Source of the DNA: Gammaproteobacteria bacterium
Lineage (GTDB): Bacteria; Pseudomonadota; Gammaproteobacteria; Burkholderiales; Rhodocyclaceae
Length of the DNA stretch: 64,000 bases
Direction of reading: 5' to 3'
Assembly (NCBI GenBank): GCA_018824085.1
Contig: JAHJHI010000032.1
Location: 62,001 to 126,000, forward strand
The notes beneath the pieces were generated by a model. The model ran no database searches and had not been told where the DNA came from. It saw only the letters and a program-made list of their open reading frames with translations. Position 1 is the stretch's first letter. Each line of letters opens with the position of its first letter. Position numbers and translations under genes: made by a program. This document shows, piece after piece, positions 1-18,431 of the stretch.

Positions 1-408
1 GCCATCCTCTATGTCATGGGTATCGAGCGGGACGGCCATCGGGCGCGCGCGAGCTTCCTCGTCTATTTCGGCTGCATCTATCCGGTCGCGTTGCTGGGCG
101 TCGCGGTGTCCGGCCTGCTGAGCGTGTCGCTGCTGCTGCAGGGCCTCGTGCTGGCGCCGCTTTTCCACTATGCAGGGCGCGTCGGCGAGGTGCTTTTCCG
201 CCGCCTTTCGGTGCGCGTCTTCAGGCCGCTGGTGCTCGTTCTGCTGGTGCTTGCCGGCGCGATGGCGGCCTGGCCCGCAGGTGTCGATTCGCGGCACACA
301 GGCGCGCCTGCAAGCGTGGTGCAAGGGCACCTTTGCAGTGCGGCAGTTGCGACGCCAATGTGCGGCACGCCCGATGTGGAAGCTTCTGTTTTCCATATAA
401 AACAATGA
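1..408 (+). CDS. TauE/SafE-type membrane permease, 3' end (partial)
   Basis: The reading frame is open at the window edge, so only about the last 135 residues are seen. They hold two or three hydrophobic stretches, a short loop with Arg residues, and a non-conserved tail ending in HIKQ. The pattern of a glycine-rich hydrophobic segment followed by a GRVGEVLFRRLS stretch resembles the C-terminal half of the TauE/SafE (DUF81) family, whose members export sulfite or organosulfur acids across the inner membrane. Family assignment is moderate because the N-terminal half is missing. It lies upstream of, and in the same direction as, a GntR regulator and a putative organosulfur uptake/redox operon, which fits a sulfur role but does not prove it. 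Confidence 0.55.
   Translation, partial: AILYVMGIERDGHRARASFLVYFGCIYPVALLGVAVSGLLSVSLLLQGLVLAPLFHYAGRVGEVLFRRLSVRVFRPLVLVLLVLAGAMAAWPAGVDSRHTGAPASVVQGHLCSAAVATPMCGTPDVEASVFHIKQ
387..404. promoter_or_regulatory. Inverted repeat upstream of the GntR gene, candidate operator
   Basis: TGTTTTCCATATAAAACA is a perfect 6-6-6 inverted repeat overlapping the 3' end of the permease gene, about 95 bp before the GntR start. Its right half TTCCATATAA-ACA recurs almost unchanged at 4773-4785 in front of the binding-protein gene. Two near-identical copies at the two likely promoters of the cluster suggest a shared regulator site, plausibly for the GntR protein. Function is inferred. Confidence 0.4.
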
Positions 409-458
409 ATTGAAGTATTTGCTGCGATGCGGGAAAAATGGCATCGCGTTTGCTTGAC

Positions 459-470
459 ATGACTCGTCAT
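459..470. promoter_or_regulatory. 12-bp palindrome in the GntR gene leader
   Basis: ATGACTCGTCAT is a 5-2-5 perfect palindrome located 27 bp before the GTG start of the GntR gene and directly after a TTGACA hexamer (454-459). GntR/HutC regulators often autoregulate through short palindromes next to their own start, so this is a second operator candidate. No good -10 element at the right spacing from the TTGACA was seen. Confidence 0.35.
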
Positions 471-497
471 AACAGGTTCTTCACATGGAGCTGATAC

Positions 498-1277
498 GTG
501 GCACCCAACCGCAAACAGATGATCGTGCCTGTGCGCACGGACCCGGCAGACGAGGTGTCGTCGGTGTCGCAGATGCCGCTCTTCACGCAGATCCGCGAAA
601 TCCTGCGCCGGCGCATTCTGGACGGCAGCTATCCGCCGCATTCGCAGATGCCGTCGGAGAGCCAGATGATGACGGCATTCCGGGTCAGCCGCATCACGAT
701 ACGGCAGGCACTGGGCGACCTGCAGAAGGAAGGGCTCATCTTCAAGGTGATGGGCAAGGGCAGCTTCGTCGCAAAGCCCAAGGCGTTCCAGAGCCTGTCG
801 CGACTGCAGGGCTTCGCTGAAGCGATGTCCTCGTCCGGTTACGAAACCTATTCGATGCTGCTCAGCGCCCGCGAGATGCCGGCCAGCAAGATCGTCGCGC
901 AGCGGCTTCAGCTCAGGGCCGATGCGCCGGTGTTCGAGATCCAGCGGTTGCGCTACCTGAACCGCGAGCCGATCTCGGTCGATGTGAGCTACTTCCCGCC
1001 CGCCATCGGCGAGCGGCTGGTGCAGGCCGACCTGGCCACGCGCGACATCTTCGTCATTCTCGAGAACGACCTCGGCCGCAACCTCACGCACGCCGAGCTG
1101 CAGATCGAGGCGATCTCGGCCGACGAGTCGCTGGCCCGGCATCTGGACATCCGCGAGGCCTCGCCACTGCTGCGCATCGAGCGCCTGACCTATGACGACG
1201 GCAAGCCGATCGATTTCGAGTTCCTCTACTACCGCGGCGACGCCTTCCAGTACCGCCTGCGGATTGATCGCAGTTGA
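498..1277 (+). CDS. GntR-family transcriptional regulator, HutC/UTRA subfamily
   Basis: Cytoplasmic one-component regulator of 259 residues. After a 27-residue leader, a winged helix-turn-helix spans about residues 28-95, with the typical recognition segment SRITIRQALGDLQKEG. A UTRA effector-binding domain fills about 110-255, including the family-like DVSYFPP and RIERLTYDDGKP stretches. The GTG start is preceded by GGAG at 7 bp. HutC-type members sense a pathway small molecule and usually repress the adjacent catabolic or transport operon. It sits immediately upstream of, and parallel to, the flavoprotein/ABC/ETF array and is therefore its likely local regulator; the effector is unknown. Confidence 0.88.
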   Translation: MAPNRKQMIVPVRTDPADEVSSVSQMPLFTQIREILRRRILDGSYPPHSQMPSESQMMTAFRVSRITIRQALGDLQKEGLIFKVMGKGSFVAKPKAFQSLSRLQGFAEAMSSSGYETYSMLLSAREMPASKIVAQRLQLRADAPVFEIQRLRYLNREPISVDVSYFPPAIGERLVQADLATRDIFVILENDLGRNLTHAELQIEAISADESLARHLDIREASPLLRIERLTYDDGKPIDFEFLYYRGDAFQYRLRIDRS

Positions 1278-1303
1278 TGCAAAGGCGCGCTGAAAAAGCA
1301 ACG

Positions 1304-1317
1304 ACGAAGTCCTTCGT
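1304..1317. promoter_or_regulatory. 14-bp palindrome before the flavoprotein gene
   Basis: ACGAAGTCCTTCGT is a perfect 6-2-6 palindrome between the GntR stop and the AprA-like start. The loop is too short and no T tract follows, so a terminator is unlikely. A protein-binding site is possible; its sequence differs from the 459-470 palindrome. Confidence 0.25.
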
Positions 1318-1367
1318 TCCCCGCCGGCGCGCCGTTTGACAGAGTGCAGCACCTTCAAGGAGACATC

Positions 1368-3098
1368 ATGAAACGCATCGATATGGAGTTCGACCTCGTC
1401 GTCATCGGCGGGGGTACGGGTGGCCCGATGGCCGCCGTCAAGGCGAAGGAGAAGAATCCGAAGTTGCGGGTACTGCTCATCGACAAGGCCAACGTGAAGC
1501 GCAGCGGCGCGATCTCGATGGGCATGGACGGCCTGAACAACGCCGTCATACCGGGTCACGCGACGCCGGAGCAGTACGTCAAGGAAATCACCATCGCCAA
1601 CGACGGCATCGTCGATCAGGAAGCGGTGATGGCCTATGCCGCCAACAGCTTCGACATGATCAACGAACTGGACCGCTGGGGCGTCAAGTTCGAGAAGGAC
1701 GAAACCGGCGACTACGCGGTGCGCAAGGTGCATCACCTGGGCAGCTACGTGCTGCCGATGCCGGAAGGCCACCACATGAAGAAGATCCTCTACCGCCAGC
1801 TGAAGAAGGCGCGGGTGGAGGTGACCAACCGCGTCGTCGTCACCCGCGTGCTGACCGGCGCCAGCGGCGAGGTCGTCGCCGTCATGGGCTTCGACTGCCG
1901 CACCGCCGACGTCTATGTCATCAAGACACGGGCGGCCGTGATCAGCACCGGCGCGGCCGGGCGCATCGGCCTGCCGGCGTCGGGTTACCTGATGGGCACC
2001 TACGAGAATCCGACCAACTGCGGTGACGGCCACGCGATGGCCTATCACGCGGGCGCCGACCTGGCCAACCTCGAGTGCTTCCAGATCAACCCGCTCATCA
2101 AGGATTACAACGGCCCGGCCTGCGCCTACGTGACCGGCCCGTTCGGCGGCTTCACGGCCAACTCCAAGGGCGAGCGCTTCATCGAATGCGACTACTGGAG
2201 CGGCCAGATGATGATGGAGTTCCACAACGAACTCGAAGGCGGCAACGGCCCGGTTTTCCTCAAGCTCGACCACCTCGCGGAGGAAACGATCCAGGAGATC
2301 GAAACCATCCTGCATACCAACGAACGCCCGAGCCGCGGCCGATTCCACGAGAAGCGCGGCAACGACTACCGCTCGCAGATGGTGGAGATGCACATTTCCG
2401 AGATCGGCTTCTGCAGCGGCCACAGCGCATCCGGCATCCACGTCAATGCGCTCGGTGAAACGTCGGTCGCCGGGCTTTACGCCGCCGGTGACTGTGCCAG
2501 CGTGCCGCACAACTACATGCTGGGTGCCTTCGTCTATGGCCGGTTGTGCGGCGAGAACGCCGCGGCCTACTGCGCGGAGCACGGGCAGGGTGCCGTCGAT
2601 GCCGGAGACGTGGCGGCCGAGGAGGCGCGCATCCTCGCGCCGCTGGGCCGCACCGACGGGCTCACGCCGTTCCAGATCGAATACAAGACGCGCCGCCTGG
2701 TGAACGACTACCTGCAGCCGCCGAAGATCACGCGCAAGTACGAAATCGCGCTGCGCCGCTTCGACGAAATCCGCGAGGACGCCGAAGCGATGTTCGCCGG
2801 CAATCCGCACGAACTGATGCGCGCGATGGAGGCGCATTCGATCCTCGACTGCGCCGAGATGGCCGCGCGCGCGTCGATGTTCCGCACGGAAAGCCGCTGG
2901 GGCCTCTACCACTACTACGTCGATCACCCGGAGCGCGACGACGACAACTGGTTCTGCCACTCGCTGCTGAGCAAGGGCGCCGACGGCGCCATGCAGATGC
3001 GCAAGAAGGCGGTCGAGCCCTACATCGTCGCCATCGACGACGAGGAACGCTCCGCCTACCAGCGCCTGCGTGTCGCACGCAGCGCAGAAGCCGCCTGA
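1368..3098 (+). CDS. AprA-like FAD-dependent oxidoreductase (fumarate reductase/APS reductase flavoprotein family)
   Basis: Cytoplasmic flavoprotein of 576 residues. The FAD-binding Rossmann start VIGGGTGGPMAA lies at residues 12-23, and the second FAD segment GLYAAGDCASVPHNYMLGA near 370-388. The N-terminal RSGAISMGMDGLNN and the C-terminal GHSASGIHV (His352) resemble adenylylsulfate reductase alpha rather than SdhA or NadB, although it is shorter than typical AprA (about 620-660). ATG 1368 is preferred over an upstream GTG (1344) because AAGGAGA stands 5 bp ahead. The next gene encodes an AprB-like iron-sulfur protein, so the two probably form a heterodimer. The substrate is unknown; true APS reduction is not assumed, because no sat, dsr or qmo genes lie nearby. 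Confidence 0.85.
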   Translation: MKRIDMEFDLVVIGGGTGGPMAAVKAKEKNPKLRVLLIDKANVKRSGAISMGMDGLNNAVIPGHATPEQYVKEITIANDGIVDQEAVMAYAANSFDMINELDRWGVKFEKDETGDYAVRKVHHLGSYVLPMPEGHHMKKILYRQLKKARVEVTNRVVVTRVLTGASGEVVAVMGFDCRTADVYVIKTRAAVISTGAAGRIGLPASGYLMGTYENPTNCGDGHAMAYHAGADLANLECFQINPLIKDYNGPACAYVTGPFGGFTANSKGERFIECDYWSGQMMMEFHNELEGGNGPVFLKLDHLAEETIQEIETILHTNERPSRGRFHEKRGNDYRSQMVEMHISEIGFCSGHSASGIHVNALGETSVAGLYAAGDCASVPHNYMLGAFVYGRLCGENAAAYCAEHGQGAVDAGDVAAEEARILAPLGRTDGLTPFQIEYKTRRLVNDYLQPPKITRKYEIALRRFDEIREDAEAMFAGNPHELMRAMEAHSILDCAEMAARASMFRTESRWGLYHYYVDHPERDDDNWFCHSLLSKGADGAMQMRKKAVEPYIVAIDDEERSAYQRLRVARSAEAA

Positions 3099-3135
3099 AC
3101 CCCGAACACCCGCACGCCCATCAAGGAGTCAAGCC

Positions 3136-3369
3136 ATGACCATTGCAGCCACGCCGACCCAGGTGCCGGTGAATGTAGATAACGACAAATGCATCGCCGA
3201 GAAGGGGTGCACCGTATGCGTCGATGTATGTCCGCTGGACGTGCTCGCCATCGACATGCTGACGAAGAAGGCCTTCATGAAGTTCGACGAGTGCTGGTAC
3301 TGCCTGCCGTGCGAAACCGACTGTCCGACCGGCGCCGTCAGCGTGTCCATCCCCTACCTGCTGCGCTGA
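3136..3369 (+). CDS. AprB-like 2[4Fe-4S] ferredoxin subunit
   Basis: Small protein of 77 residues with two complete cysteine sets: Cys19, 25, 28, 32 (the last followed by Pro) and Cys53, 56, 59, 63 (followed by Pro). The spacing of the first set and the ECWYC segment at the second match the iron-sulfur core of the APS reductase beta subunit. The protein stops right after the core and lacks the AprB C-terminal tail that wraps the alpha subunit. The start ATG has AAGGAG 7 bp upstream. It most likely carries electrons between the preceding flavoprotein and a downstream carrier (the 7Fe ferredoxin or the EtfBA pair). Confidence 0.87.
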   Translation: MTIAATPTQVPVNVDNDKCIAEKGCTVCVDVCPLDVLAIDMLTKKAFMKFDECWYCLPCETDCPTGAVSVSIPYLLR

Positions 3370-3379
3370 GGAGACCGCC

Positions 3380-4327
3380 ATGGACATCCAGAACTTTTCC
3401 ATCAGCGAGCGTCTCGGCAGCCTCGACGCCGAAGTCCGTCGCCTCGCGGTGATCGATCTGCCGTACGGCGACGAGGAGGACATCGTGTCGCTGCTGCTGC
3501 CGCGTCTGGCGGACGAGGACGCCGCCGTGCGGACCGAGGCCGTGCGCGCGCTCGAGGGCTACGAAGAGCTCGAAGTGGTGAGCGCGCTGGCGCCGATGCT
3601 GCTCGACGCGGACGACGGCGTGCGCGCGGCGGTCGGTGTCGTGCTGTCCGAACTCAAGGGCAGCGAGTGCGCGCCGCCCTTGTTGCCCTTCCTGCGCGGC
3701 CACACGGCCGAGGTCCGCACGCTGGCGCTGCGCGCGATCCGCGCACTGCGCGTACCGGAAGCCTTCGAACCGGCGATGGAGGCGCTGAAGGACGCCGATG
3801 CCGGCGTGCGCCGCGAAGCGGTCGGCGTGCTGGGCTATCTGCGCATGCCGCAGGCGATCGGTGCGCTGGCCGAAGTGGCGGCGCTCGACGCCGACGCCGA
3901 CGTGCGGCGCATCGCCATCGGCGCCATCGGCTACTCCAGCGAACAGAGCGTGCTGCCGGCGCTCACGCGGGGGCTGGCCGACAACGCGTGGATGGTGCGC
4001 GACGAGGCGGCGCAGACGCTGGGCAAGCTGCGGCTCGGCCTGGCGATACCGGAGCTGGTGCGTGCGATGCAGGACGAGTACTGGCAGGTACGCGTGAAGG
4101 CGGCGCGCAGTCTCGGCCTGCTCAAGGCGGTCGTGGCGCTGCCGGCGCTCATCGATGCGCTGGCCCACCCGATCGGCAACCTGCGCAAGGAGGCCGCGAT
4201 CGCGCTCGGCGAGATCGCCGACCCGCGCGCCATTCCGGCGCTCGAAGGCGCGCTGGAGGACAGCGACCCGGACGTGCGCAAGCTGTCGCGCCTCGCGCTG
4301 ACCGCCATCACGCTGGCTCAGAAGTGA
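3380..4327 (+). CDS. HEAT-repeat protein
   Basis: All-helical repeat protein of 315 residues, about nine HEAT units of roughly 31 residues. Each carries a D-x-x-V-R-x-x-A-x-x-A-L-G type pattern, for example DADAGVRREAVGVLGYL and DNAWMVRDEAAQTLGKL. No signal peptide or membrane segment, so cytoplasmic. The gene begins 10 bp after the AprB-like gene with GAGGAGA-like ribosome binding, and precedes a second ferredoxin. HEAT arrays act as scaffolds or as chaperone/lyase partners. In this position it may assemble or dock the flavoprotein and iron-sulfur subunits, but nothing in the sequence fixes that role. Confidence 0.85.
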   Translation: MDIQNFSISERLGSLDAEVRRLAVIDLPYGDEEDIVSLLLPRLADEDAAVRTEAVRALEGYEELEVVSALAPMLLDADDGVRAAVGVVLSELKGSECAPPLLPFLRGHTAEVRTLALRAIRALRVPEAFEPAMEALKDADAGVRREAVGVLGYLRMPQAIGALAEVAALDADADVRRIAIGAIGYSSEQSVLPALTRGLADNAWMVRDEAAQTLGKLRLGLAIPELVRAMQDEYWQVRVKAARSLGLLKAVVALPALIDALAHPIGNLRKEAAIALGEIADPRAIPALEGALEDSDPDVRKLSRLALTAITLAQK

Positions 4328-4400
4328 GGCGCCCCGATGACATTTTTCCTTTCAATCGAAGCGCGGCCCGGCTGCCGGACCGCGCACCGGGAGGACTGAC

Positions 4401-4736
4401 ATGACCTATGTCGTGACCGAAGCCTGCGTGCGCTGCAAATACACCGACTGCGTCGACGTCTGTCCGGTCGAGTGCTTCCACGAAGGGCCGGATTTTCTGG
4501 TGATCAATCCGGACGGCTGCATCGACTGCGGCGTGTGCGTCACCGAATGTCCGGTCGGTGCCATCTACGCCGACACCGACCTGCCGCCGGCGCAACAGGT
4601 GTTCGTCGAAATCAACGCGCGCCTGAGCACGCAGTGGCCGGTCATCGCCGAAGCGTGCGAGCCGCTGGCCGATGCCGCCGAGTGGGCGGAGGTGAAGGAC
4701 AAGCGCCACTACCTGGACGTGTTGCAGGAGGGCTGA
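4401..4736 (+). CDS. FdxA-type seven-iron ferredoxin ([3Fe-4S][4Fe-4S])
   Basis: Soluble ferredoxin of 111 residues that closely follows Azotobacter FdI/FdxA in length and layout. The cysteine positions are 9, 12, 17, 21 and 25 in the first half and 40, 43, 46 and 50 in the second, with the FdI-like segments RCKYTDCVDVCPV and GCIDCGVCVTECP. The C-terminal 50 residues (INARLSTQWP region) also match the FdI extension. It is a low-potential one-electron carrier. The gene starts after a 73-bp gap and a GGGAGGA ribosome site. In the operon it gives a second electron carrier beside the AprB-like protein. Confidence 0.92.
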   Translation: MTYVVTEACVRCKYTDCVDVCPVECFHEGPDFLVINPDGCIDCGVCVTECPVGAIYADTDLPPAQQVFVEINARLSTQWPVIAEACEPLADAAEWAEVKDKRHYLDVLQEG

Positions 4737-4770
4737 GATGCCCAGGCGGCCGGGCGGGCCGTGCAGGCGG

Positions 4771-4788
4771 ATTCCATATAAGACAAGC
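4771..4788 (+). promoter_or_regulatory. Second copy of the TTCCATATAA motif before the ABC binding-protein gene
   Basis: ATTCCATATAAGACAAGC repeats the 387-404 motif (TTCCATATAA then A or G then ACAA) about 65-80 bp before the binding-protein start. This points to an internal promoter for the transport/ETF half that shares a regulator with the GntR gene. ATATAAGACA-type half-sites are, from memory, found at GntR-family operators in betaproteobacteria; binding is inferred. Confidence 0.4.
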
Positions 4789-4852
4789 GCTCTGAGGCAG
4801 GCGCACCGGGTTTTTCGGTTTTTTCATTGCACTGACAGGGAGAGGTATAGCC

Positions 4853-6298
4853 ATGAACGTACTGAATGAAACAATGGGTCGGGTGGTGTGGAATGCGCGC
4901 ACCGTGGTGTTCGGACTGGCCATGGCGAGTTGTGCGCCGGCCGCGCTGGCGGAAGTCGTGACCGTGGGCATCGGCACGCAGAACACCACCACCAATACGG
5001 TGACCGGCGGCATCGTCATCAAGGAAATGGGCCTGCTTGAGAAGTACCTGCCCAAGACCGGCAAGTACAAGGACATCCAGTTCAGGATGGAGTGGCAGAA
5101 CTTCACGTCCGGCCCGCCGGTGACCAACGGCATGATCGCCAACACGCTGCAGATCGGCATGATGGGCGACTATCCGCTGCTGGTGAATGGCGCCACCTTC
5201 CAGGCCGGCCCGGAAACGAAGAGCCGCCTCATCGCGATGATCGCCTACAACGCCGACGGTGCCGGCAACGGCATCGTGGTGCACAAGGACTCGCCGTACT
5301 ACCAGCTGTCCGACCTGAAGGGCAAGAAGGTGTCCGTGCCCTTCGGTTCGGCCGCGCACGGCATGGTGCTCAAGGCGATGGAAGACAAGGGCTGGAAGGC
5401 CGACTTCTGGGACCTGGCGAGCCAGAGTCCCGAAGTGGGCACGTCCAGCCTGCAGGAGAAGCGCATCGATGCGCACGCCGACTTCGTACCGTTCGCCGAG
5501 CTGCTGCCCTACCGGGGCTTCGCCCGCAAGATTTTCGACGGCGTCGAAACCAAGGTGCCGACCTTCCACGGCGTCGTGGTGCGCGAGGACTTCGCGAAGA
5601 AGTATCCGGAGTTCGTCGTGGCCTACATCAAGGCGCTGATCGAAGCCAATGACTGGGTGCGCAAGAACCCGGTCGAGGCGGCGACGAAGATCGAGGAATG
5701 GACGCGGGTGGAGAAGGAAGTCGCGTACATGTTCCTCGGCCCGGGCGGCGTGCATACGCTGGACCCGACCATCAAGCCGAAGTGGATCGATACGGTGAAA
5801 TATGACCACGGCGTGCTGACCCGCATGGGGCGCGTGAAGCCGCTGGATGCCGATGCGTGGGCGGACGAGAGCTATGTGATGCAGGCCTACAAGGAACTCG
5901 GCCTCGACTATGCCGCGCACAAGGCCAGCTTCGCCAGCTACGAGATCAGCGGTACCGATCCGCTGTGCGGCGGCACGATCGACAAGCCGCGCGAAGCGGG
6001 CGAGGTGTGGATCGATGGCGGCGCGCTGACCGCGTACAAGTCGGCCGAATGCACGCTGGCGGCCGTGAATGCCGCGACCAGGGCGGGCAAGAAGGTCGGC
6101 GTGGCCTTCGTGTTCGATCAGGCCTTCAAGATCAAGCTGTTCGCCGACAAGGCCTTCTATTCGCTGGCGGGCAAGGGCGAATCGGCCACCATCACGCCCT
6201 TCCTGCTGAAGAAGGACGCCGAGGCCCATGCTGCCGCCCACGGCGGCAAGCTGGGCAGCTACGCCGACGCACTGGCGGTCGCAACGGTAAGGAAATGA
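4853..6298 (+). CDS. ABC transporter periplasmic binding protein with C-terminal NosL-like domain
   Basis: Exported protein of 481 residues. A signal peptide of about 33 residues ends at ALA-EV. Residues about 35-355 form an SsuA/TauA/NMT1-like solute-binding domain (VGIGTQNTTTN start, KGKKVSVPFGSAAHG around 160-175, conserved EANDWVRKNPVEAA). Residues about 365-480 are extra for this family and resemble NosL, the copper-binding nitrous oxide reductase accessory protein: DPLCGG with Cys372, a second Cys at 400 in AECTL, and a KAFY...ITPF...HGGKLGSY ending. The NosL Met that follows CG is replaced by Gly. It is followed 3 bp later by the permease. Solute is unknown; taurine, sulfonate or nitrate-like anions are the family norm. 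Confidence 0.85.
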   Translation: MNVLNETMGRVVWNARTVVFGLAMASCAPAALAEVVTVGIGTQNTTTNTVTGGIVIKEMGLLEKYLPKTGKYKDIQFRMEWQNFTSGPPVTNGMIANTLQIGMMGDYPLLVNGATFQAGPETKSRLIAMIAYNADGAGNGIVVHKDSPYYQLSDLKGKKVSVPFGSAAHGMVLKAMEDKGWKADFWDLASQSPEVGTSSLQEKRIDAHADFVPFAELLPYRGFARKIFDGVETKVPTFHGVVVREDFAKKYPEFVVAYIKALIEANDWVRKNPVEAATKIEEWTRVEKEVAYMFLGPGGVHTLDPTIKPKWIDTVKYDHGVLTRMGRVKPLDADAWADESYVMQAYKELGLDYAAHKASFASYEISGTDPLCGGTIDKPREAGEVWIDGGALTAYKSAECTLAAVNAATRAGKKVGVAFVFDQAFKIKLFADKAFYSLAGKGESATITPFLLKKDAEAHAAAHGGKLGSYADALAVATVRK

Positions 6299-6301
6299 GC
6301 C

Positions 6302-7267
6302 ATGGGAACCGCGATGAGGATACAGCCGGTGCATGACGCGCGAGCGTACCCGGCTGCACCGGAGGGGGCGCCGTCGGACGCGCCCGCAGGGGCCGCATCG
6401 GCGACGGCGCAAGCCGTTGCGGTGCGGCCGGTCGCGGCGCCGGCCAGGCCGGTGCCCGCCGTACGCTTCGCACGGCTGATGCGTCGGGAAGGGCCGGGGC
6501 TGTTGCTCGGCGCCTTGTCGATCTGTCTGCTGATCGGCTTCTGGTATCTGGCGACCACGTATCGCTGGAGCTTCTACATCCGGTTCATCAACGTGCCCGG
6601 TCCGGTCGAGGTGTTCCAGGATGCGTCGCGCCTGTTCGGCAACGAGCAGTTCATGACCAACATCACCATCAGCCTGCGACGCATCATGCTGGGCTTCATC
6701 GCCGCAACGGTGCTCGGCGTGACGATGGGGCTGCTGATCGGACGCTATCGCAGGGTGCGTCAGCTGACGTTCCCGGCGATGGAAATCCTGCGCCCGATCC
6801 CGGCCATCGCCTGGGTGCCGATCTCCATCATGCTGTGGCCGACGACCGAAACCAGCATCGTGTTCATCACCTTCATCGGCGCCTTCTTTCCCATCCTGCT
6901 CAACACGATGCACGGTGTGGCGACGATGGACAGCGTGCTGGTGCGGGCGGCGCGCTGTCTCGGCGCAAGCGAGTTCGCGCTGATGACGCAGGTGGTGCTG
7001 CGCGGCGCCATGCCGCACATCTTCACCGGGCTGGCGGTGGGCATGGGCGTGGCCTGGGTGTCGCTGATCGCCGCGGAGATGATTTCCGGGCAGTACGGCG
7101 TCGGCTACTTCACCTGGGAGGCGTACTCCCTGATCGAGTATTCACACATCGTCATCGGCATGCTGGTCATCGGGGTGCTGGGCCTGCTGTGCAGCGGCGC
7201 GATCCGTCTGCTGGCCCGGCTCGTCATGCCCTGGCAGATCGCGGCGGGCAAGGAGAACAACCGATGA
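6302..7267 (+). CDS. ABC transporter permease, SsuC/TauC/NrtB type
   Basis: Inner-membrane permease of 321 residues. A 60-residue Ala/Pro-rich cytoplasmic leader precedes about six transmembrane helices. The cytoplasmic EAA-loop segment (RAARCLGASEFALMTQVVLRG, shortened here) lies near residue 220-240 and contacts the ATPase. The segment LRPIPAIAWVPISIMLWP is characteristic of the sulfonate/taurine/nitrate permease branch. The ATG has AAGGAA upstream; MRIQPVHD at 6314 is an alternative start. It overlaps the ATPase gene by 4 bp, so the two are translationally coupled. Confidence 0.92.
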   Translation: MGTAMRIQPVHDARAYPAAPEGAPSDAPAGAASATAQAVAVRPVAAPARPVPAVRFARLMRREGPGLLLGALSICLLIGFWYLATTYRWSFYIRFINVPGPVEVFQDASRLFGNEQFMTNITISLRRIMLGFIAATVLGVTMGLLIGRYRRVRQLTFPAMEILRPIPAIAWVPISIMLWPTTETSIVFITFIGAFFPILLNTMHGVATMDSVLVRAARCLGASEFALMTQVVLRGAMPHIFTGLAVGMGVAWVSLIAAEMISGQYGVGYFTWEAYSLIEYSHIVIGMLVIGVLGLLCSGAIRLLARLVMPWQIAAGKENNR

Positions 7268-8133
7268 ATGCGACCTCAGCCCCCGGCCGGGGGCATATAG
7301 ACATCCAGGACGTGTGCGTGCGCTTCACGCAGAACGGCGTGCCGCTGGACGCGGTGCAGTCGGTGTCGCTGACCGTCAATCCCGGCGAATTCGTATCCAT
7401 CGTCGGTCCGTCCGGCTGCGGCAAGTCGACCTTGCTCAACATCGTGGCCGGCTTCCTCAAGCCGGACCAGGGCGTGGTCACCGTCGACGGCGCGCCGATC
7501 ACCGGTCCCGGCGCGGACCGTGGCGTCGTGTTCCAGCAGTACTCGCTGTTCCCCTGGCTCAGCGTGCGCCAGAACGTCGAGTTCGGCCTGAAGATGCAGG
7601 GGCTGGGGCGCAGCGCGCGCGAAAGCCGGGCCCGGACGCTGCTCGGTCTGGCCGGGCTGCTGTCGTTCGAGAACCACTATCCGGACCAGCTCTCCGGCGG
7701 CATGAAGCAGCGCGTGGGCATCGTGCGCGCACTCGCCACCAGTCCGCAGGTGATGCTGATGGACGAGCCGTTCGGTGCGCTCGATTCGCAGACGCGCGTG
7801 GTGATGCAGGAAATCCTCACCAATATGTGGCAGCAGCTGCGCCTGTCGGTCCTGTTCATCACGCACGACATCGAAGAGGCGATCTTCCTGTCCGACAAGG
7901 TGTACGTCATGACCGCACGTCCCGGGCGCATCAAGGCGGAGATTCCGGTGCTGCTGCCGCGCCCGCGCACGCCGGACATGATGTCGTCGCCCACTTTCCT
8001 CGCGCTGAACCGCCAGTTGCGGGCGCTCATCCGCGAAGAGAGCCTGGCGGCGATGGGCGGCGAGCTGGGCGAGGGCGGGCTGGCCGGACACGACTGGCAT
8101 GTCGGTGCCGAAGGTGTGGGAGCCATGCTGTGA
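7264..8133 (+). CDS. ABC transporter ATPase, SsuB/TauB/NrtD type
   Basis: Cytoplasmic ATPase of 289 residues. The Walker A is GPSGCGKST (about residue 50-58), the Q-loop is FQQYSLFPW, the signature is LSGGMKQR, the Walker B is VMLMDEPFGALD, and the switch is FITHDIEEA. The order and spacing match the sulfonate/taurine/nitrate importers. The C-terminal 40 residues, rich in Gly and Glu, are variable. Start ATG at 7264 overlaps the permease stop, and the end overlaps the DUF971 gene (GTGA), so the importer and the DUF971 protein are coupled. Confidence 0.95.
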   Translation: MNATSAPGRGHIDIQDVCVRFTQNGVPLDAVQSVSLTVNPGEFVSIVGPSGCGKSTLLNIVAGFLKPDQGVVTVDGAPITGPGADRGVVFQQYSLFPWLSVRQNVEFGLKMQGLGRSARESRARTLLGLAGLLSFENHYPDQLSGGMKQRVGIVRALATSPQVMLMDEPFGALDSQTRVVMQEILTNMWQQLRLSVLFITHDIEEAIFLSDKVYVMTARPGRIKAEIPVLLPRPRTPDMMSSPTFLALNRQLRALIREESLAAMGGELGEGGLAGHDWHVGAEGVGAML

Positions 8134-8423
8134 GCGCGGCCGTGCCGGTGTCCATCACGGTGCGCAGCGCATCCCGCCTGCTGTGCATCGAGTGGGACGA
8201 CAGTGCCGTCAGCGAACTGCCGCATGCGCGACTGCGCGCGCGCTGCCGCTGCGCAGCCTGTACGCATGCCGCGCGCCGCGGCGACACGCCCGGCGACGGC
8301 GCTGACGTGACGCTGACGGCGGTCAATGCGGTGGCCGACGGCGGCCTGAACCTGGTGTTCTCCGACGGGCACGGACGTGGCATCTATCCCTGGGCGTATC
8401 TGCGGGAAATCGGCGCCGCGTGA
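8130..8423 (+). CDS. DUF971 domain protein
   Basis: Protein of 97 residues translated from a GTG that overlaps the ATPase stop. It is an almost complete DUF971 domain (the small domain found at the N-terminus of gamma-butyrobetaine hydroxylases and in stand-alone proteins near iron-sulfur assembly genes). It shows LLCIEWDDSAVSELPHARLR followed by Cys-rich RCRCAACTH and an IYPWAYLREIG end. The CxCxxC group could bind zinc or an iron-sulfur cluster. Its molecular role is unknown. Its place between the importer and the EtfBA genes suggests assembly or regulation of the redox enzymes. Confidence 0.85.
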   Translation: MSAAVPVSITVRSASRLLCIEWDDSAVSELPHARLRARCRCAACTHAARRGDTPGDGADVTLTAVNAVADGGLNLVFSDGHGRGIYPWAYLREIGAA

Positions 8424-8452
8424 CGGCCCGCGAACTGGAAGGAGTGCTGGAC

Positions 8453-9217
8453 ATGAAGGTGCTGGTGGCAGTGAAGCGCGTGGTCGACCACCACGTGAAG
8501 GTGCGCGTGCTCGTGGATGGCAGCGACGTCGACGTCGCCAGCGCGAAGATGAGCGTCAATCCGTTCGACGAGATTGCCGTCGAGGAAGCGGTGCGGCTGC
8601 GCGAGGCCGGGCTGGCGAGCGAGGTGCTTGTCGTGTCGTGCGGCGTGGCGGCCTGCCAGGACACGCTGCGTGCCGCGCTCGCCATGGGCGCGGACCGCGC
8701 CGTGCGCGTCGAAACGGACGTCGCGCTGCAGCCGCTGGCCGTGGCCCGGTTGCTGCACGCGCTGTGCCTGCGCGAACAGCCGGGCCTGGTCATCTGCGGC
8801 AAACAGGCCATCGATGACGACGCGGCGCAGACCGGGCAGATGCTGGCGGCGCTGCTCGGCTGGCCGCAGGCGACCAATGCATCCCGCGTGACGCTGACCG
8901 GCGGGCGGGTCGAGGTCGAATGCGGGATCGACGGCGGCACGGAGGTGCTGAGCCTGTCGCTGCCGGCGGTGCTGACGACGGACCTGCGGCTGAACGAGCC
9001 GCGCTACGCGTCGCTGCCCGGCATGATGAAGGCGAAGAAAAAGCCGCTCGACACGGTGACGCCGGCGCAGCTCGGCGTCGATGTCACGCCGGGCCTGCGC
9101 ACCGTGCGCGTCGCCGAGCCGCCGGTGCGCGAGCCCGGCGTGCGTGTCGCCAGTGTCGAGCAACTGCTCGCGTGCCTGTGCGGCGAGGGCGGCGCACTGC
9201 GGGGAGCCCTGCCATGA
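8453..9217 (+). CDS. etfB: Electron transfer flavoprotein beta subunit
   Basis: Protein of 254 residues beginning MKVLVAVKRVVDHHVKVRV, typical of group I EtfB, with the NPFDEIAVEEAVRLREAG helix, the AMP-binding CGKQAIDDDAAQTGQ segment and the NEPRYASLPGMMKAKKKPLD recognition loop. Start ATG 8453 is favoured by GGAG 8 bp upstream; a GTG at 8420 would overlap the DUF971 stop. EtfB pairs with EtfA and passes electrons from dehydrogenases, usually to ETF-quinone oxidoreductase. It overlaps etfA by 4 bp. The catalytic partner here is probably the AprA-like flavoprotein; no ETF-QO gene is in the window. Confidence 0.95.
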   Translation: MKVLVAVKRVVDHHVKVRVLVDGSDVDVASAKMSVNPFDEIAVEEAVRLREAGLASEVLVVSCGVAACQDTLRAALAMGADRAVRVETDVALQPLAVARLLHALCLREQPGLVICGKQAIDDDAAQTGQMLAALLGWPQATNASRVTLTGGRVEVECGIDGGTEVLSLSLPAVLTTDLRLNEPRYASLPGMMKAKKKPLDTVTPAQLGVDVTPGLRTVRVAEPPVREPGVRVASVEQLLACLCGEGGALRGALP

Positions 9218-10164
9218 AGGCACTGGTCATCGCCGAACACGACAATGAGGCGCTGCAGGCGGGCACGCTGAACACCGTGACGGCCGCGCTGCAGATGGCC
9301 GACGAGGTCGACCTGCTGGTCGCCGGACACGGGTGTGCGGCGGTCGCCGCACAGGCCGCGCGCGTGGCCGGAGTGACGCGGGTTCTGCACTGCGAGGCCC
9401 CGCACTACGGCGAGCAGCTGGCGGAGCCGCTGGCCGCGCTGGTGTGCGGCATCGCCAGCGGCTATACGCATCTGGTCGCACCGGCCGGCGTGTCCGGCCG
9501 CAACCTGATGCCGCGCGTCGCGGCGACGCTGGGCGTGTCGCAGATCAGCGGCATCGTGCGCGTCGATGCCGGCGACACCTTCACCCGCCCGATCTACGCC
9601 GGCAACGCGCTGGCCACCGTGCAGGCGCTCGATTCGCGCATCGTGCTGACGGTGCGCGCCACCGCGTTCGCCCCGGCCGGCGGCGGTGCGCCGGTGCCGG
9701 TCGAACCGCTCGCGCCGGCGCCGGACCCGGCGCTGTCGCGACGGCTCTCGCGCACGCTCGCCGGCGGTGACCGGCCGGACCTCGCCAGCGCGCGCGTCGT
9801 GGTGTCGGGTGGGCGCGCGCTGGGCAGTGCGGAGAACTTCGGTGCGCTGCTCGAACCGCTGGCCGGTTGCATGGGCGCCGCGCTGGGCGCCAGTCGCGCC
9901 GCCGTCGACGCCGGCTACGCGGGCAACGACTGCCAGGTCGGCCAGACCGGCCGCGTCGTCGCGCCGGACCTCTACATCGCCGTCGGCATCTCGGGCGCCA
10001 TCCAGCATCTGGCCGGCATGAAGGACTCGAAAGTCATCGTCGCCATCAACAGCGACCCGGACGCGCCGATCTTCGGCGTTGCCGACTATGCGCTCGTCGC
10101 CGACCTGTTCGATGCCGTGCCCGCGCTCACGCACGCACTCAAGTCTCGTTGCATCCCGCCGTAA
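9214..10164 (+). CDS. etfA: Electron transfer flavoprotein alpha subunit
   Basis: Protein of 316 residues. The N-terminal domain starts [11 protein letters not shown], and the C-terminal FAD domain is well kept: [44 protein letters not shown] and [18 protein letters not shown]. All usual FAD-contact segments of EtfA are visible, so the heterodimer should bind FAD. Translation is coupled to etfB by a GCCATGA junction. A housekeeping etfAB is expected elsewhere in such genomes, so this pair is likely a dedicated copy for the upstream pathway. Confidence 0.96.
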
Positions 10165-10203
10165 CAGGAGCTGCACACATGGCGCACTTGCGCGAGGGAA
10201 GTG

Positions 10204-11154
10204 ATGAGAATCCTGCTGGTCGAAGACAGCCGGGCCGTGGCGGCTGTCATGACCATGCGGCTTGCCGCGTTCGGCTATGAAGTGAGCGTCGCCGCGAATG
10301 GCGAGATTGCCGTTGCGATGTTCGCGACGCTGCCGCCGGATCTGATGCCCGATCTGATCCTGATGGACGTCCAGATGCCGGTCATGAACGGTTTCGAGGC
10401 GTCGGCACGCATCCGTGCGATCGAGGCTACCCGGGACTGGGCGTGGACGCCCATCGTGTTCCTGACGGCGTCGTCGTCACCGGATACGCTGGTGACCGCG
10501 ATCGAGGCGGGCGGTGACGACTTCATCGTGAAATCGGCGCCTGAATCGGTATTGCGCGCAAAGATGAAGGCCATGACGCGCATTGCCGCGCTGCGCGCGC
10601 GGCTTTCGGTCGCCAATCGCCTGCTCAGCGAACAGGCGAGCAGGGACGGCCTGACCGGCCTGCTGAACCGCCGCCACATGGATCTGACGCTCGATCAGGC
10701 GTGGAATGCGGTGTGCGGTCGCGGCCAGCCCTTCGGCCTGATGATGATAGACATCGATCACTTCAAGAAATACAACGACCACTACGGACACCTCGCCGGC
10801 GACGATTGCCTGTGTACCGTGGCGAAGGCCCTGGAGGGCGTGGTGAAACGTTTCAACGCCGATGTCCCCGACAGCGGCGTGTTCGTCGCGCGCTACGGCG
10901 GCGAGGAATTCGCCGTCGTCATGCCAGCGGTGTCGTCGGGCGCCTTCCATGCGACGGCCGGCGCGATCATCGACGCGGTCCGCTCACTGGCCGTGCCGCA
11001 CGAGCGCAACGCCGAGTGGGGCATCGTCACCGCTTCGCTCGGCGGCGTGCACGTCGAGCGTGCCGACGACGATCTGGTCGCGCTGTTCCGCACCGCCGAT
11101 GCGCGCCTCTACCGCGCCAAGGAAGCCGGACGCAACTGCGTGGTGCTCAACTGA
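10204..11154 (+). CDS. Response regulator with GGDEF diguanylate cyclase domain
   Basis: Protein of 316 residues. A CheY-like receiver (about 1-125) has acidic residues in VEDS, the phospho-acceptor Asp in [13 protein letters not shown], Thr in FLTAS and Lys in IVKSA. A GGDEF domain (about 145-310) has [27 protein letters not shown] and the active-site RYGGEEF, so it should make cyclic di-GMP when phosphorylated. No RxxD inhibitory site is seen before GGEEF. It starts 39 bp after etfA and could be co-transcribed. No cognate kinase is adjacent. The 3' end overlaps the convergent ADP-ribosylglycohydrolase gene by 8 bp. Confidence 0.93.
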
Positions 11155-12178
11155 GCGCGAGCCGGCGCAGCGCTTCCACCAGCGGCTGATACTGCGCGTG
11201 CGCATGCAGTCCGCGCACCCATTCGGGCGGCAACGCATCCATGCCGCCGGCCGCGCCCAGCAGCGCACCGAGCACGACGCCACGGTGACAGTTGTCGCCA
11301 CCGGCCCGCACATTGGCCAGCAGTCCGCCGCGTGCATCGTGTTCGTACTTCACGGCCAGATGCAGCGTGGCCGGCAGTGAATCCGCGAGTTTGCAGGCCG
11401 GGCTGAAGCGGTTGCCGATGATGTCGTTGTCGTCCCGTGTGTCCGCCCACTCGTGCCAGGGATGGTCCAGCACGGCGTGCTCCGTGCGCCCGCACTGCGT
11501 CATCGCCTCGTCGATGGTCGAACCGTGCACCAGCGAGAACAGCAAGTCGGCAAAGACGGCGGCGGCCTCGGCGGCAACCGGGCCCTTGTGCGTGAGCGCG
11601 ATGTGCTCGCGCACGACGGCCTGCATGGCGTCGCGGTCGGATGCGTACAGCAGCACCAGCGGCGTGAGCGTCGCCAGGCCACCGATGTTGCTGTCCTCGA
11701 CGCCGCATTCGTCCAGCTCGCGTCCTTCGGCGTAGTGCCGGAAAAAGCTGCGGTGCGACGATTCGACATAGGTGTCGCGATGGCTGCCCGCGGTCAGCAT
11801 GAAGTCGATGTAGCGCCGCGCGAAATCGCTCTGATCGTAGCCGCCGCAGTCGATCAGCGAGTGTGCGAGCAGTGCGGCGATCTGCACGTTGAGCGTGTTT
11901 TCGCCGGCGGCGAGAAACTGGTGGTAGTGGATGTCGGACGGGCCACCCCAGTAGACGGCCTGCTCGTGCAGGATGTCGTCGGTCGCGCCGGTGGCCGTGT
12001 AGCTGGAACGCGACAGCGCGCTGTCCGGGTGCGGATTGTGAGGGGCGACGTAGCCGGTCAGCGTGCCGTAGTCGGTCGCGATGCGCTCGCGTGTGTAATA
12101 CCAGTGCACCGGCATCGCCAGCGCATCGCCGATGAAGCTGCCCCACCAGGCCGCTTCGAAGCGTGAAGGGTCGATCAT
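11147..12178 (-). CDS. ADP-ribosylglycohydrolase family protein
   Basis: Cytoplasmic protein of 343 residues in the ARH/DraG fold family, which removes ADP-ribose from proteins or small molecules using two Mg ions. It has the N-terminal GSFIGDALAMPVHWYY, the metal-site TDD in ATGATDD and the C-terminal GGDNCHRGVVLGALLGAAGG. In this last motif the usual D-T-D metal ligand pair reads D-N-C, as in one eukaryote-like branch of the family, so the substrate may differ from DraG. No nitrogenase genes lie near. Its start overlaps the PAP2 gene stop (ATGA), which ties it to the lipid-phosphate group upstream. Confidence 0.88.
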   Translation of the reverse strand: MIDPSRFEAAWWGSFIGDALAMPVHWYYTRERIATDYGTLTGYVAPHNPHPDSALSRSSYTATGATDDILHEQAVYWGGPSDIHYHQFLAAGENTLNVQIAALLAHSLIDCGGYDQSDFARRYIDFMLTAGSHRDTYVESSHRSFFRHYAEGRELDECGVEDSNIGGLATLTPLVLLYASDRDAMQAVVREHIALTHKGPVAAEAAAVFADLLFSLVHGSTIDEAMTQCGRTEHAVLDHPWHEWADTRDDNDIIGNRFSPACKLADSLPATLHLAVKYEHDARGGLLANVRAGGDNCHRGVVLGALLGAAGGMDALPPEWVRGLHAHAQYQPLVEALRRLALS

Positions 12179-13005
12179 TGCGTGTCTCCGTCAAGGGGAA
12201 ATGGATCGGGGCGTGGCGCGCCGTCCGGGCGCCGGCGCAGCAACTCCTGGCTCATCACGCACAGGCTCAGCCACAGCGTGCCGGACGAGATGCCGGCCAG
12301 CACGTCGCTCGCGAAATGGACCTGCAGCACGACCCGGCTGGCGGCCGTCGACATGGCGATGGTCACCGCGAGCAGCAGCAGCGGCAGATGCCAGCGCGCG
12401 GGCAGCAGGCGCATGAGCACATAGGCCGCCATGCCGTAGGCGACCACGGTGCCGGAGGCGTGCCCGCTCGGAAAGCTCCAGCTCGTCTCTATCGTGTAGC
12501 CATGTTCGTGGATGGGCCGCACCCGTTCGAACATCGATTTCAAGGTCACGTTGAGCAGCGAATTGCCGGCGACGGCGGCAATCCAGCCGGCCGCGAGCAG
12601 GTGGTGTCCGCGCACCAGCAGCAGCGCGGCGAGCGCGACGCACAGGCCGGTCAGCGTCGCCGTGTCGCCGAAATGCGTGACCAGTGCGGCGGCGCGCAGC
12701 GTCTCCGCGGGCTGGGTGGCCTGCAGCGCGGCAGCGAGCGCTTCGTCGAAGGCGACCAGCGCGCCGCGGTGCGACAGCGCGCCGGCCAGCGAGAGGAAGA
12801 GCAGGCCGGCCGGCAGCATGCACGACATGCCGACGGCGAGGATGCGCTGTGGCGTCGGATCGCCGGCGGGGCGAGCAACGCGCCAGGACCATGCAAGGGC
12901 GAGCGCGAGCGCCAGTGCGCCGAGCAGCGTGCTGATGAACAGAGGGAAGGCGTTGGCGGCAACGACTTCCGCCAGCAGTTCGGCATTCGTGAGACTTGAG
13001 TACAT
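12175..13005 (-). CDS. PAP2-family membrane phosphatase
   Basis: Integral membrane protein of 276 residues with about six hydrophobic segments. The three phosphatase motifs are complete: KSMFERVRP (KX6RP), PSGH in SFPSGHASG, and SRVVLQVHFASD (SRX5HX3D). Members dephosphorylate phosphatidate, undecaprenyl pyrophosphate or similar lipid phosphates at the membrane surface. The gene starts 7 bp after the metallophosphoesterase stop and overlaps the next gene by 4 bp. With the lipid kinase two genes upstream it may form a lipid phosphorylation/dephosphorylation unit. The exact substrate is not evident. Confidence 0.92.
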   Translation of the reverse strand: MYSSLTNAELLAEVVAANAFPLFISTLLGALALALALAWSWRVARPAGDPTPQRILAVGMSCMLPAGLLFLSLAGALSHRGALVAFDEALAAALQATQPAETLRAAALVTHFGDTATLTGLCVALAALLLVRGHHLLAAGWIAAVAGNSLLNVTLKSMFERVRPIHEHGYTIETSWSFPSGHASGTVVAYGMAAYVLMRLLPARWHLPLLLLAVTIAMSTAASRVVLQVHFASDVLAGISSGTLWLSLCVMSQELLRRRPDGAPRPDPFPLDGDTQ

Positions 13006-13011
13006 CGGGTT

Positions 13012-13821
13012 TCAATCGGGGTGCGGATCAAGCGTGAGCGCGCTCAGGGCGATCAGTTCGAACTGTCCGGAATGTTCGCGGTAGTCCCAGCGCTCGACGA
13101 CGCACTGGCGGGGGTCGCGCGCATCGATCCGGATCAGGTTCACAGAGTTGCCCGCGTCACGGCGGGTACGCAAGGATACCGAAGTGCCGGCCTGGACGGC
13201 CCAGCCGGTCCGGTTGCCGTCGCCGCGCAGCGCGTGCACGAAGGGCAGATGGATGTGGCCGCCGAAGATGAGATCGGCCCCGCTCTCGACCCACCGGCGC
13301 ACCGCCGCCGCGTGTTTGTGCACGCGGTTGTGCCGCTCGGACGCGCGCGATGCGACGACCGGGTGATGCAGCACCACGGCGCGCAGCACGCCGGGCGGCG
13401 CGTCGCGCAGCTGGCATGCGGTGCGCTCGATCTGCGTGTCCGACAGTTCGCCGTTGATGTGGCGGTAGCGGCGCGTCGAATCGAGGCCGACGACGCGCAT
13501 GTGCGCCGTGTCGATCACCGTGTCGTGCGCCTTGCCGAATGCGCGGCGGTAGGCGCGGTACGGTGCGAACACGCGTGCCGCGACGTTGAACAGCGGGATG
13601 TCGTGATTGCCCGGCAGCACCATCAGCGCCGGCGCCTCCAGACTGTCCAGAAAGCGGCGTGCCGCCGCGAACTGCTCGCCGCGCGCACGCTGCGTGATGT
13701 CGCCCGACGCGGCGACCAGTGCGGGCTTCTGTTCGTGCGCCAGCCGGCGCAGGGCGGTGCACACGGCGCTGCGTTCGACGCCGAAGTGCGGATCCGACAC
13801 CTGCATCATCAGCACGCTCAT
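13012..13821 (-). CDS. Calcineurin-like metallophosphoesterase
   Basis: Protein of 269 residues with the full dinuclear metal set: SDPHFG near the N-terminus, ASGDIT, PGNHD, LHHPV and GGHIHLP. The order and size fit the class III phosphodiesterase (CpdA-like) group. Start ATG 13821 is chosen because it gives the family's MSVLMMQVSDPHFG beginning and overlaps the lipid kinase stop as ATGA. Possible substrates are cyclic nucleotides or a lipid headgroup phosphodiester; the neighbours (lipid kinase, PAP2) favour the latter, as an inference. Confidence 0.92.
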   Translation of the reverse strand: MSVLMMQVSDPHFGVERSAVCTALRRLAHEQKPALVAASGDITQRARGEQFAAARRFLDSLEAPALMVLPGNHDIPLFNVAARVFAPYRAYRRAFGKAHDTVIDTAHMRVVGLDSTRRYRHINGELSDTQIERTACQLRDAPPGVLRAVVLHHPVVASRASERHNRVHKHAAAVRRWVESGADLIFGGHIHLPFVHALRGDGNRTGWAVQAGTSVSLRTRRDAGNSVNLIRIDARDPRQCVVERWDYREHSGQFELIALSALTLDPHPD

Positions 13822-14756: not shown

Positions 14757-14821
14757 GGGATGGCGGGGCGAAAGGGCGGCGAGCCCCGGAGATCCCATGT
14801 TAGGGCGTTCGCATGCACCCG

Positions 14822-15754: not shown

Positions 15755-15894
15755 GTCCCGGGTCTCCGTCATCGATGATTCGTCTCTTCCGTACCGCCGC
15801 GGCGGGGGCGCGGGCGATCACCGGGACTATGCACCCGCGGGCGGCGCCGATGGAAGGGGCGGTGCGCGCACGGGTGCGGAGCCGTCAATGTCGC

Positions 15895-17346: not shown

Positions 17347-17377
17347 CACGGCTGTGTGCTCCGGTTGCCAGAGTGCA

Positions 17378-18403: not shown

Positions 18404-18431
18404 CACGCTTCCTTTCTGATTGAAGTGTGGT

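Follow-up and report, generated by a model that had tools for sequence, protein, structure and literature searches.

Introduction

The dissimilatory APS reductase AprBA combines an FAD flavoprotein with a two-cluster ferredoxin subunit, and AprA works through a flavin-sulfite adduct. A short flavoprotein and a ferredoxin are likewise paired in the Ilyobacter cysC/cysD cluster, where they sit with sulfate-activation genes. The genes of taurine dissimilation (tauABC, tauXY, xsc, tauE and tauZ) provide a TauA-like importer and exporters for sulfite and sulfate (PMC5320631); their regulator is of the MocR type. In this study we analysed a 64,000-nucleotide stretch of DNA (the window), which carries an operon that resembles these systems in part. 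Like AprBA, it encodes an FAD flavoprotein (A) and a ferredoxin with two 4Fe-4S motifs (B); unlike AprBA, its B has only 77 aa, and genes for an importer, a HEAT-repeat protein (H) and a DUF971 protein (D) belong to the operon. It shares with taurine dissimilation the type of importer and exporters, whereas its redox enzyme is different, its regulator is of the GntR/UTRA type and the Xsc of the host is below cut-off. Our tentative proposal, to which we give slightly less than an even chance, is that the operon imports a sulfonate-type anion and that its flavin/Fe-S enzyme then releases sulfite from this anion, with no known desulfonase involved.

Results

Organisation of the locus

Eleven genes occupy positions 498-10164 of the window, all on the + strand, and the whole run listed in the initial annotation, from the GntR/UTRA regulator to EtfA, was confirmed. 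The gene order is not a matter of chance, since it recurs in relatives and in distant phyla. The first gene (498..1277) encodes the GntR/UTRA transcriptional regulator (Pfam UTRA 134 bits, GntR 61 bits), which may sense a compound of the pathway. Many 4-bp overlaps had been reported. Those between the permease gene (P, 6302..7267) and the ATPase gene (T, 7264..8133), between T and the DUF971 gene (8130..8423; PF06155, 75.5 bits) and between EtfB (8453..9217) and EtfA (9214..10164) are firm, whereas an overlap of DUF971 and EtfB depends on the start chosen: it requires GTG at 8420, and the better-fitting start is the ATG at 8453, which is preceded by a run rich in purines. The window opens inside a TauE/SafE-family permease gene, of which it holds the 3' portion (1..408, + strand); the match to this gene starts about 482 bases before position 1. 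Beyond it, and likewise upstream of the window, lie a YeiH gene, matched from -1717 to -764, and, on the opposite strand, a LysR gene (match -2735 to -1863). Relatives show the same order for these three genes. An Rfam scan of positions 1-11000 returned zero matches, and in a promoter/terminator scan the numbers obtained (0 and 4) did not exceed the chance expectation (0.9 and 4.7, respectively). No sat, dsr or qmo gene was present among ten Pfam-scanned ORFs at 15.9-53.3 kb, two of which had no match.

The flavoprotein forms a clade next to AprA

The A protein (1368..3098, + strand) exceeds the curated cut-off of NCBIfam family NF006131 (PRK08275; 1054.5 vs. 587 bits) and falls below that of the AprA model TIGR02061 (160 bits, cut-off 642). 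NF006131 is an annotated family, for which we found no described function in the literature; the name that the A family carries is taken from fumarate reductase. In our tree, A members form their own clade (support 99/96) adjoining AprA and a PAPS-reductase-like protein, and lie outside the SdhA/FrdA/NadB clade (100/100). The initial annotation had proposed to test for a separate clade and named placement within AprA or SdhA/NadB as one result that would speak against its system; the tree recovers the former and not the latter. The Asn, His, Lys-Asp and Arg-Trp positions are common to AprA and A, the Asn and His being those of the AprA site. The sulfate-binding Arg of AprA (Arg265 in A. fulgidus) is conserved in 8/8 AprA-clade rows and replaced by Leu in all 26 A members compared. 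In the same 26 members, the functional His of the QxHPT motif of SdhA/FrdA/NadB is Asn, and A has four new invariant cysteines. The sub-cut-off model scores, the separate clade and the Arg to Leu change rule out a true AprA, as the tree position and the Asn in place of His do for SDH or NadB. The nearest solved chain is the archaeal PAPS reductase of Methanothermococcus (8a8o, 242 bits), with AprA next; unlike A, both this enzyme and the Ilyobacter protein keep the Arg. We dropped the adenylylated (APS-like) substrate suggested earlier because of the Leu in 26/26 members and the sulfonate type of the binding protein described below. A predicted structure of A had a mean pLDDT of 62.5, with low values at residues 235-354, and was therefore left unused.

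Redox genes and importer are inherited together

Genes for A, B and H occur together in 111/111 loci from three phyla. B (3136..3369, + strand) is below the cut-off of the AprB model TIGR02060 (35 vs. 136 bits), and H (3380..4327, + strand) matches the fusion model NF010374; in Tsukamurella, H is fused to A. The importer accompanies the redox genes at 87/111 loci, as the initial annotation had expected of a co-conserved system, and A, B, H, X (the substrate-binding protein) and P are found together at 86/111, again in three phyla. Across these 86 loci, X, P and T diverge in proportion to A (correlation of distances, r 0.71-0.74, 0/999 permutations). The locus counts given here and below are not phylogenetically independent. 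We thus regard it as scarcely credible that importer and redox genes are chance neighbours with different tasks, which the correlated divergence over three phyla argues against, even though 24/111 loci have no X above 200 bits in the fetched stretch (one of them, L061, is a short contig) and the importer forms a separate unit in several alphaproteobacterial and cyanobacterial loci. In the loci of these two groups, importer and A-B-H are often separated by a gene for a regulator, or the importer is transcribed divergently. The A family is above cut-off in 21/398 sampled Pseudomonadota genomes, host included, and plasmids of cyanobacteria, actinobacteria and rhizobia carry members too. Among public genomes, at least 549 of the 592 pattern stretches listed code for a relative, where one gene may count twice.

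A sulfonate-type binding protein and neighbouring putative exporters

X (4853..6298, + strand), which has a NosL-like part at its C-terminus, has TauA and SsuA as its closest relatives in sequence, and the top eight matches in a fold comparison are TauA/SsuA chains. All 30 X members compared match both models, SsuA and TauA, at E 1e-10. From a set of 31 prepared X rows, two were omitted in a subsequent step: L083 and L117, the latter containing a stop. The window X is below the subfamily cut-off for SsuA (TIGR01728; 117 bits, cut-off 163.5) and for TauA (70 bits). Judged by these similarities, X is a sulfonate-type binding protein with a predicted sulfonate ligand. The ATPase and permease are related to those of the Sec-assisted organometallic (SAO) system (reviewed in PMC13188914), and an ETF-beta model from this NCBIfam series was matched as well. 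In contrast to a true SAO system, all scores are below cut-off: T gives 267 of 360 bits to SaoA, its best NCBIfam match, with TauB close (257 of 357); P gives 144 of 295 to SaoP and 149 of 209 to NrtB; X gives 21 of 300 to SaoX. We find no support for cysteine-based metal binding in the NosL-like part of X, as the C-terminal cysteine is present in 6/20 rows only.

YeiH is found near A on the same strand at 29/110 loci, in three positions and two phyla, and TauE at 17/110; leaving out three repeats, recognised by their equally long contigs (L042/L051, L035/L103, L036/L090), gives 28/107 and 16/107. The 40 named genomes contain 42 YeiH copies overall, and in 17 of these genomes YeiH is within 10 kb of A. 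Within the host genus, YeiH occurs in 9/9 genomes that encode an A of this kind and in 0/4 that do not. The fetched Pseudomonas, Burkholderia, Paraburkholderia, Caballeronia and Ralstonia loci have no YeiH near A. At the family level, YeiH and TauE/SafE are putative sulfite/sulfate exporters, and together with the TauA/SsuA-type binding protein they uphold the sulfur theme of the initial annotation. The SaoA, NrtB and SaoP matches, the NosL-like part of X, the new cysteines in A and the many loci without YeiH could instead point to a non-sulfur substrate, i.e. an organometal, a phosphonate or another small anion that is imported and oxidised or reduced, with the exporters moving another weak acid. 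We consider this improbable given the sub-cut-off Sao scores, the preference of X for the SsuA and TauA models over SaoX, its poorly conserved cysteine and the recurrence of YeiH and TauE in two phyla.

The search for host desulfonases covered SsuD, TauD and Xsc: SsuD and TauD were not found, and Xsc was not above cut-off (309 bits of 676). Xsc is above cut-off in 1/30 genomes with loci of this group, a set in which G006 and G710 are one genome. AprA had no match in the host genome at E 1e-60. With a desulfonase encoded elsewhere, A might act on sulfite itself, producing sulfate without AMP for export by YeiH. The flavin-sulfite adduct of AprA and the retained Asn and His would fit such a role; we nevertheless judge it very unlikely, as the sulfate-binding Arg is lost and the host lacks SsuD and TauD and has a sub-cut-off Xsc in a search limited to these three enzymes.

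Candidate electron partners and direction

The FdxA-type ferredoxin (4401..4736, + strand; NF045490, 156 bits, cut-off 135) is optional, being present at 37/110 other loci. EtfBA, previously seen as part of the core, is likewise an optional partner: it occurs at 9/110 loci only, which rules out a core role. The window EtfB and EtfA are 72% and 64% identical to another EtfB and EtfA of the genome and look canonical by motifs; ETFs of the canonical type normally accept electrons from dehydrogenases. The host also encodes an ETF:quinone oxidoreductase. Ferredoxin-NADP reductase (Fpr) is found at 20/110 loci and an FAD/NAD(P)-type oxidoreductase of ~1150 aa at 5/110 (4/107 without repeats). These enzymes, and a PAPS reductase as the nearest solved relative, would suit reductive cleavage of the same class of substrate, in which electrons pass from NADPH via Fpr and FdxA to B, and the reduced FAD of A releases sulfite by cutting an S-C, S-N or S-S bond, in analogy to the action of PAPS reductase on PAPS. 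This alternative is unlikely in our view, if still a serious one; the seemingly canonical window ETF and the quinone oxidoreductase speak against it, an argument that is weak because 6/9 ETF loci also have Fpr. We lean slightly towards the oxidative direction. In four cyanobacterial loci, an Mrp/NBP35 ATPase replaces DUF971.

Discussion

We return to import and cleavage of a sulfonate as the preferred reading. It draws on the position of the A clade beside AprA, the affinity of X to TauA/SsuA, the YeiH and TauE neighbours, the correlated divergence of importer and A, the ETF:quinone oxidoreductase of the host and its lack of SsuD and TauD with a sub-cut-off Xsc; counted against it are loci without nearby YeiH or X, the separate importer units and Fpr, which would equally suit a reductive enzyme. 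X-P-T would import a sulfonate-type organosulfur anion, and an A-B flavin/Fe-S complex, with H as a structural partner, would cleave it in the cytoplasm to sulfite and a desulfonated carbon compound, with no need for a known desulfonase. The FAD of A and ferredoxin B would exchange electrons, with FdxA next in line where present; the onward route may differ by lineage, with ferredoxin-NADP reductase linking to NADP, or EtfBA and ETF:quinone oxidoreductase linking to the quinone pool. Surplus sulfite or sulfate may exit via TauE/SafE and YeiH, and DUF971 (or Mrp) probably assists Fe-S cluster insertion. The main uptake-and-redox idea of the earlier interpretation thus survives, without its adenylylated substrate and its core ETF.

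The available portions of PMC8305402, PMC9355187, PMC6971185, PMC8557817 and PMC5373536 do not name an A-B-H module; PMC8305402 describes an operon for a sulfonate transporter that is NifA-dependent, which we do not connect to the A family. We rejected a connection to the methyltransferase gene clusters described in PMC10418091, as a term search of its text returned no flavoprotein, ETF or ferredoxin.

Overall, the operon seems to belong to a widely shared gene set for import and processing of a sulfonate-like compound by an enzyme distinct from its sulfate-reduction relatives. It is possible, if rather doubtful, that it represents a desulfonation route that works independently of dioxygen and is found in cyanobacteria as well as in aerobic and facultative bacteria. 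The AprA lineage would then have a third functional branch next to the APS and PAPS reductases, one in which sulfite is freed from a sulfonate by means of FAD, Fe-S clusters and active-site cysteines; this branch would have a dedicated importer and exporters and would be spread on chromosomes and plasmids. If the family does cleave sulfonates, it would contribute an enzyme for desulfonation to organic sulfur cycling in soil and freshwater and in plant symbionts and cyanobacteria, and would offer a natural comparison of how AprA-type chemistry changes upon loss of the sulfate-binding arginine.

The flavoprotein module and its conserved core

The + strand of the window (contig C31, 62001-126000, of a 4.28 Mb genome) carries, in order, a GntR/UTRA regulator (R), an AprA-like FAD flavoprotein (A), a 77-aa two-cluster ferredoxin (B), a HEAT-repeat protein (H), FdxA, a TauA/SsuA-like binding protein (X), an ABC permease (P) and ATPase (T), a DUF971 protein (D), EtfB and EtfA; gene and domain checks recovered every gene listed in the initial annotation. 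A scores 1054 bits against model NF006131 (cut-off 587) and falls far under the AprA, SdhA and NadB cut-offs, and is therefore a member of an already annotated family, whose name derives from fumarate reductase. An open-access literature search found no publication on this family or on the module.

We compared 111 loci: 14 from relatives, 80 named, 16 on plasmids, and the window. A 112th, L185 (Ilyobacter polytropus plasmid pILYOP02), served as outgroup and is without H; its PAPS-reductase-like pair lies with cysC, cysD and a DASS anion symporter (6940-13709). A, B and H are present in all 111 loci (tblastn), and A is the sole clear catalytic protein in the core. A, B, H, X and P occur together in 86/111; X above 200 bits is absent from the fetched stretch in 24/111 (tblastn), including a Ralstonia and Burkholderia-type group with R-A-B-H-D only, and D and R were missed in 22 and 13 of the 111, respectively. 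In Tsukamurella, A and H are fused into a single 893-aa protein, the arrangement of model NF010374. Across the 86 loci, distances correlate with those of A for B (r 0.86), H (0.91), X (0.71), P (0.74) and T (0.72), and permutation tests of divergence tracking A gave 0/999 for each of the five. A single common transcript is not general, since a Crp/Fnr or LysR regulator gene often separates the importer from A-B-H in alphaproteobacterial and cyanobacterial loci, and the Methylocystis importer is divergently oriented. In the window, a terminator-like hairpin with a T run lies between fdxA and the importer (4805-4819), although such sites are not above chance in this region.

In plants, the Fe-S carrier HCF101 has DUF971 as its third domain. 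Together with an Mrp/NBP35 ATPase beside the core in four cyanobacterial loci (the one protein scanned shows ParA and FeS-assembly domains but lacks DUF971), this suggests an Fe-S delivery role for DUF971/Mrp. A possible cue to the substrate comes from Nostoc edaphicum plasmid pNe_5, where genes for two HAD hydrolases, two GNATs, a methyltransferase, a VOC protein and an amidase are interspersed among the core genes (8980-18411). Directly 3' of etfA, on the same strand, 10201-11154 encodes a response regulator with a GGDEF-type end, as read from its translation; its cluster has members in six loci, window included. Further along, 15895-38870 holds genes of polysaccharide type, for a sugar transferase, a glycosyltransferase, a Wzy-like ligase and a Wzz protein, together with one for a GMC oxidoreductase.

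A separate clade with an altered predicted pocket

In a midpoint-rooted tree with long branches at L018 and L185, 26 A sequences form a separate clade (support 99/96) that adjoins a group of AprA, the PAPS-type protein and L018 (97/86), apart from SdhA/NadB-type sequences (100/100). A and AprA share Asn57, Lys245-Asp246, Glu345, His352, His381 and Arg510-Trp511 (A numbering, from the ATG at 1368). An Arg found in 8/8 AprA sequences is Leu243 in A (26/26), and the SdhA/NadB His is Asn241; on these residues, the predicted substrate pocket is neither of APS-reductase nor of fumarate-reductase type. Cys237, Cys252, Cys349 and Cys495 are invariant in 111/111 aligned members and Cys274 is present in 96%; these cysteines may take part in the chemistry.

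Importer, putative exporters and a probable link to sulfur

X is closest to TauA and SsuA in sequence, and the top eight fold-search matches to its model (mean pLDDT 82.6) are all TauA/SsuA chains; it scores under the SsuA-family cut-off (117 vs 163.5). Its C-terminal part is NosL-like, at 28.8 bits in Pseudanabaena and 19.3 in the window (cut-off 24), and solved NosL 7og7 matches X with an E of 0.005. A cyanobacterial 666-aa LysR regulator (L152, 6664-8661, minus strand) has a weak NMT1-like, i.e. binding-protein-like, C-terminal match (21.1 bits, cut-off 24.7), consistent with a possible role in sensing the imported ligand.

Our host desulfonase search, which covered SsuD, TauD and Xsc, found neither SsuD nor TauD, and a best Xsc score of 309 of 676 bits, under the cut-off. 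Xsc exceeds its cut-off in 1/30 genomes carrying loci of the module's group.

YeiH (PF03601), which we take to belong to the TauZ family, lies near A in 29 of 110 loci and is on the same strand as A in all 29. Upstream copies, 0.9-2.2 kb from A, are those of Methyloversatilis, Azoarcus, Limnobacter and their relatives; downstream copies lie at 4.9-6.5 kb in loci such as those of Polaromonas and Roseateles, and at 2.5-3.9 kb on three cyanobacterial plasmids. The 40 named genomes hold 42 YeiH genes, and in 17 of these genomes a copy is no more than 10 kb away from A, vs about 0.2 genomes expected at random by our own arithmetic, kinship ignored. Within the host's genus, probably Methyloversatilis, YeiH is beside A in 9/9 genomes with FdxA-type A and wholly absent from four (three without A over the cut-off, one with only the other A type); Fisher's test puts this association at 1 in 715, again without regard to kinship. 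TauE/SafE is likewise on the same strand in 17/17 cases, including three cyanobacterial loci and two without FdxA. For taurine pathways, PMC5320631 gives TauE as sulfite exporter and TauZ as sulfate exporter. Counting against a sulfur link, no YeiH was found near A in the Pseudomonas, Burkholderia, Paraburkholderia, Caballeronia or Ralstonia loci fetched.

Beside the module, Sinorhizobium fredii has LLM or NtaA-type flavin monooxygenases, M20 and GNAT proteins (L183, 17302-21445), and Cupriavidus pinatubonensis an acyl-CoA-dehydrogenase-like protein and a second SsuA-type importer (L186, 15269-19719). Organosulfur-scavenging islands have gene sets like these.

Electron partners and proposed mechanism

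EtfBA had been proposed as the electron route to quinone; as the sole route this is too narrow. Among 110 loci, FdxA is present in 37, a ferredoxin-NADP reductase (Fpr) in 20, EtfB in nine (six of them also with Fpr) and an FAD oxidoreductase roughly 1150 aa long in five; with each in only part of the loci, EtfBA is one among several partners. Three etf pairs (six PF01012 matches) are encoded in the host genome, along with a single ETF:quinone oxidoreductase. EtfB and EtfA of the window are 72 and 64% identical to a pair on host contig C36 and, judged by their motifs, look canonical.

Composition, co-inheritance, clade and residue changes are the demonstrated part of the mechanism. Beyond these, a sulfonate would be taken up and sulfite would be the product, with two-electron flavin chemistry delivering electrons to B and onward, either through FdxA to NADP or through ETF to quinone. 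We lean towards the oxidative direction because a canonical-looking ETF can join the other partners; a reductive direction is somewhat less likely, although Fpr and the relatedness to PAPS reductase would fit it. The module is real, widespread and coherent, with no described function among the open-access literature searched, and A is a variant, with a putative substrate only, inside the AprA-like flavoenzyme kind.
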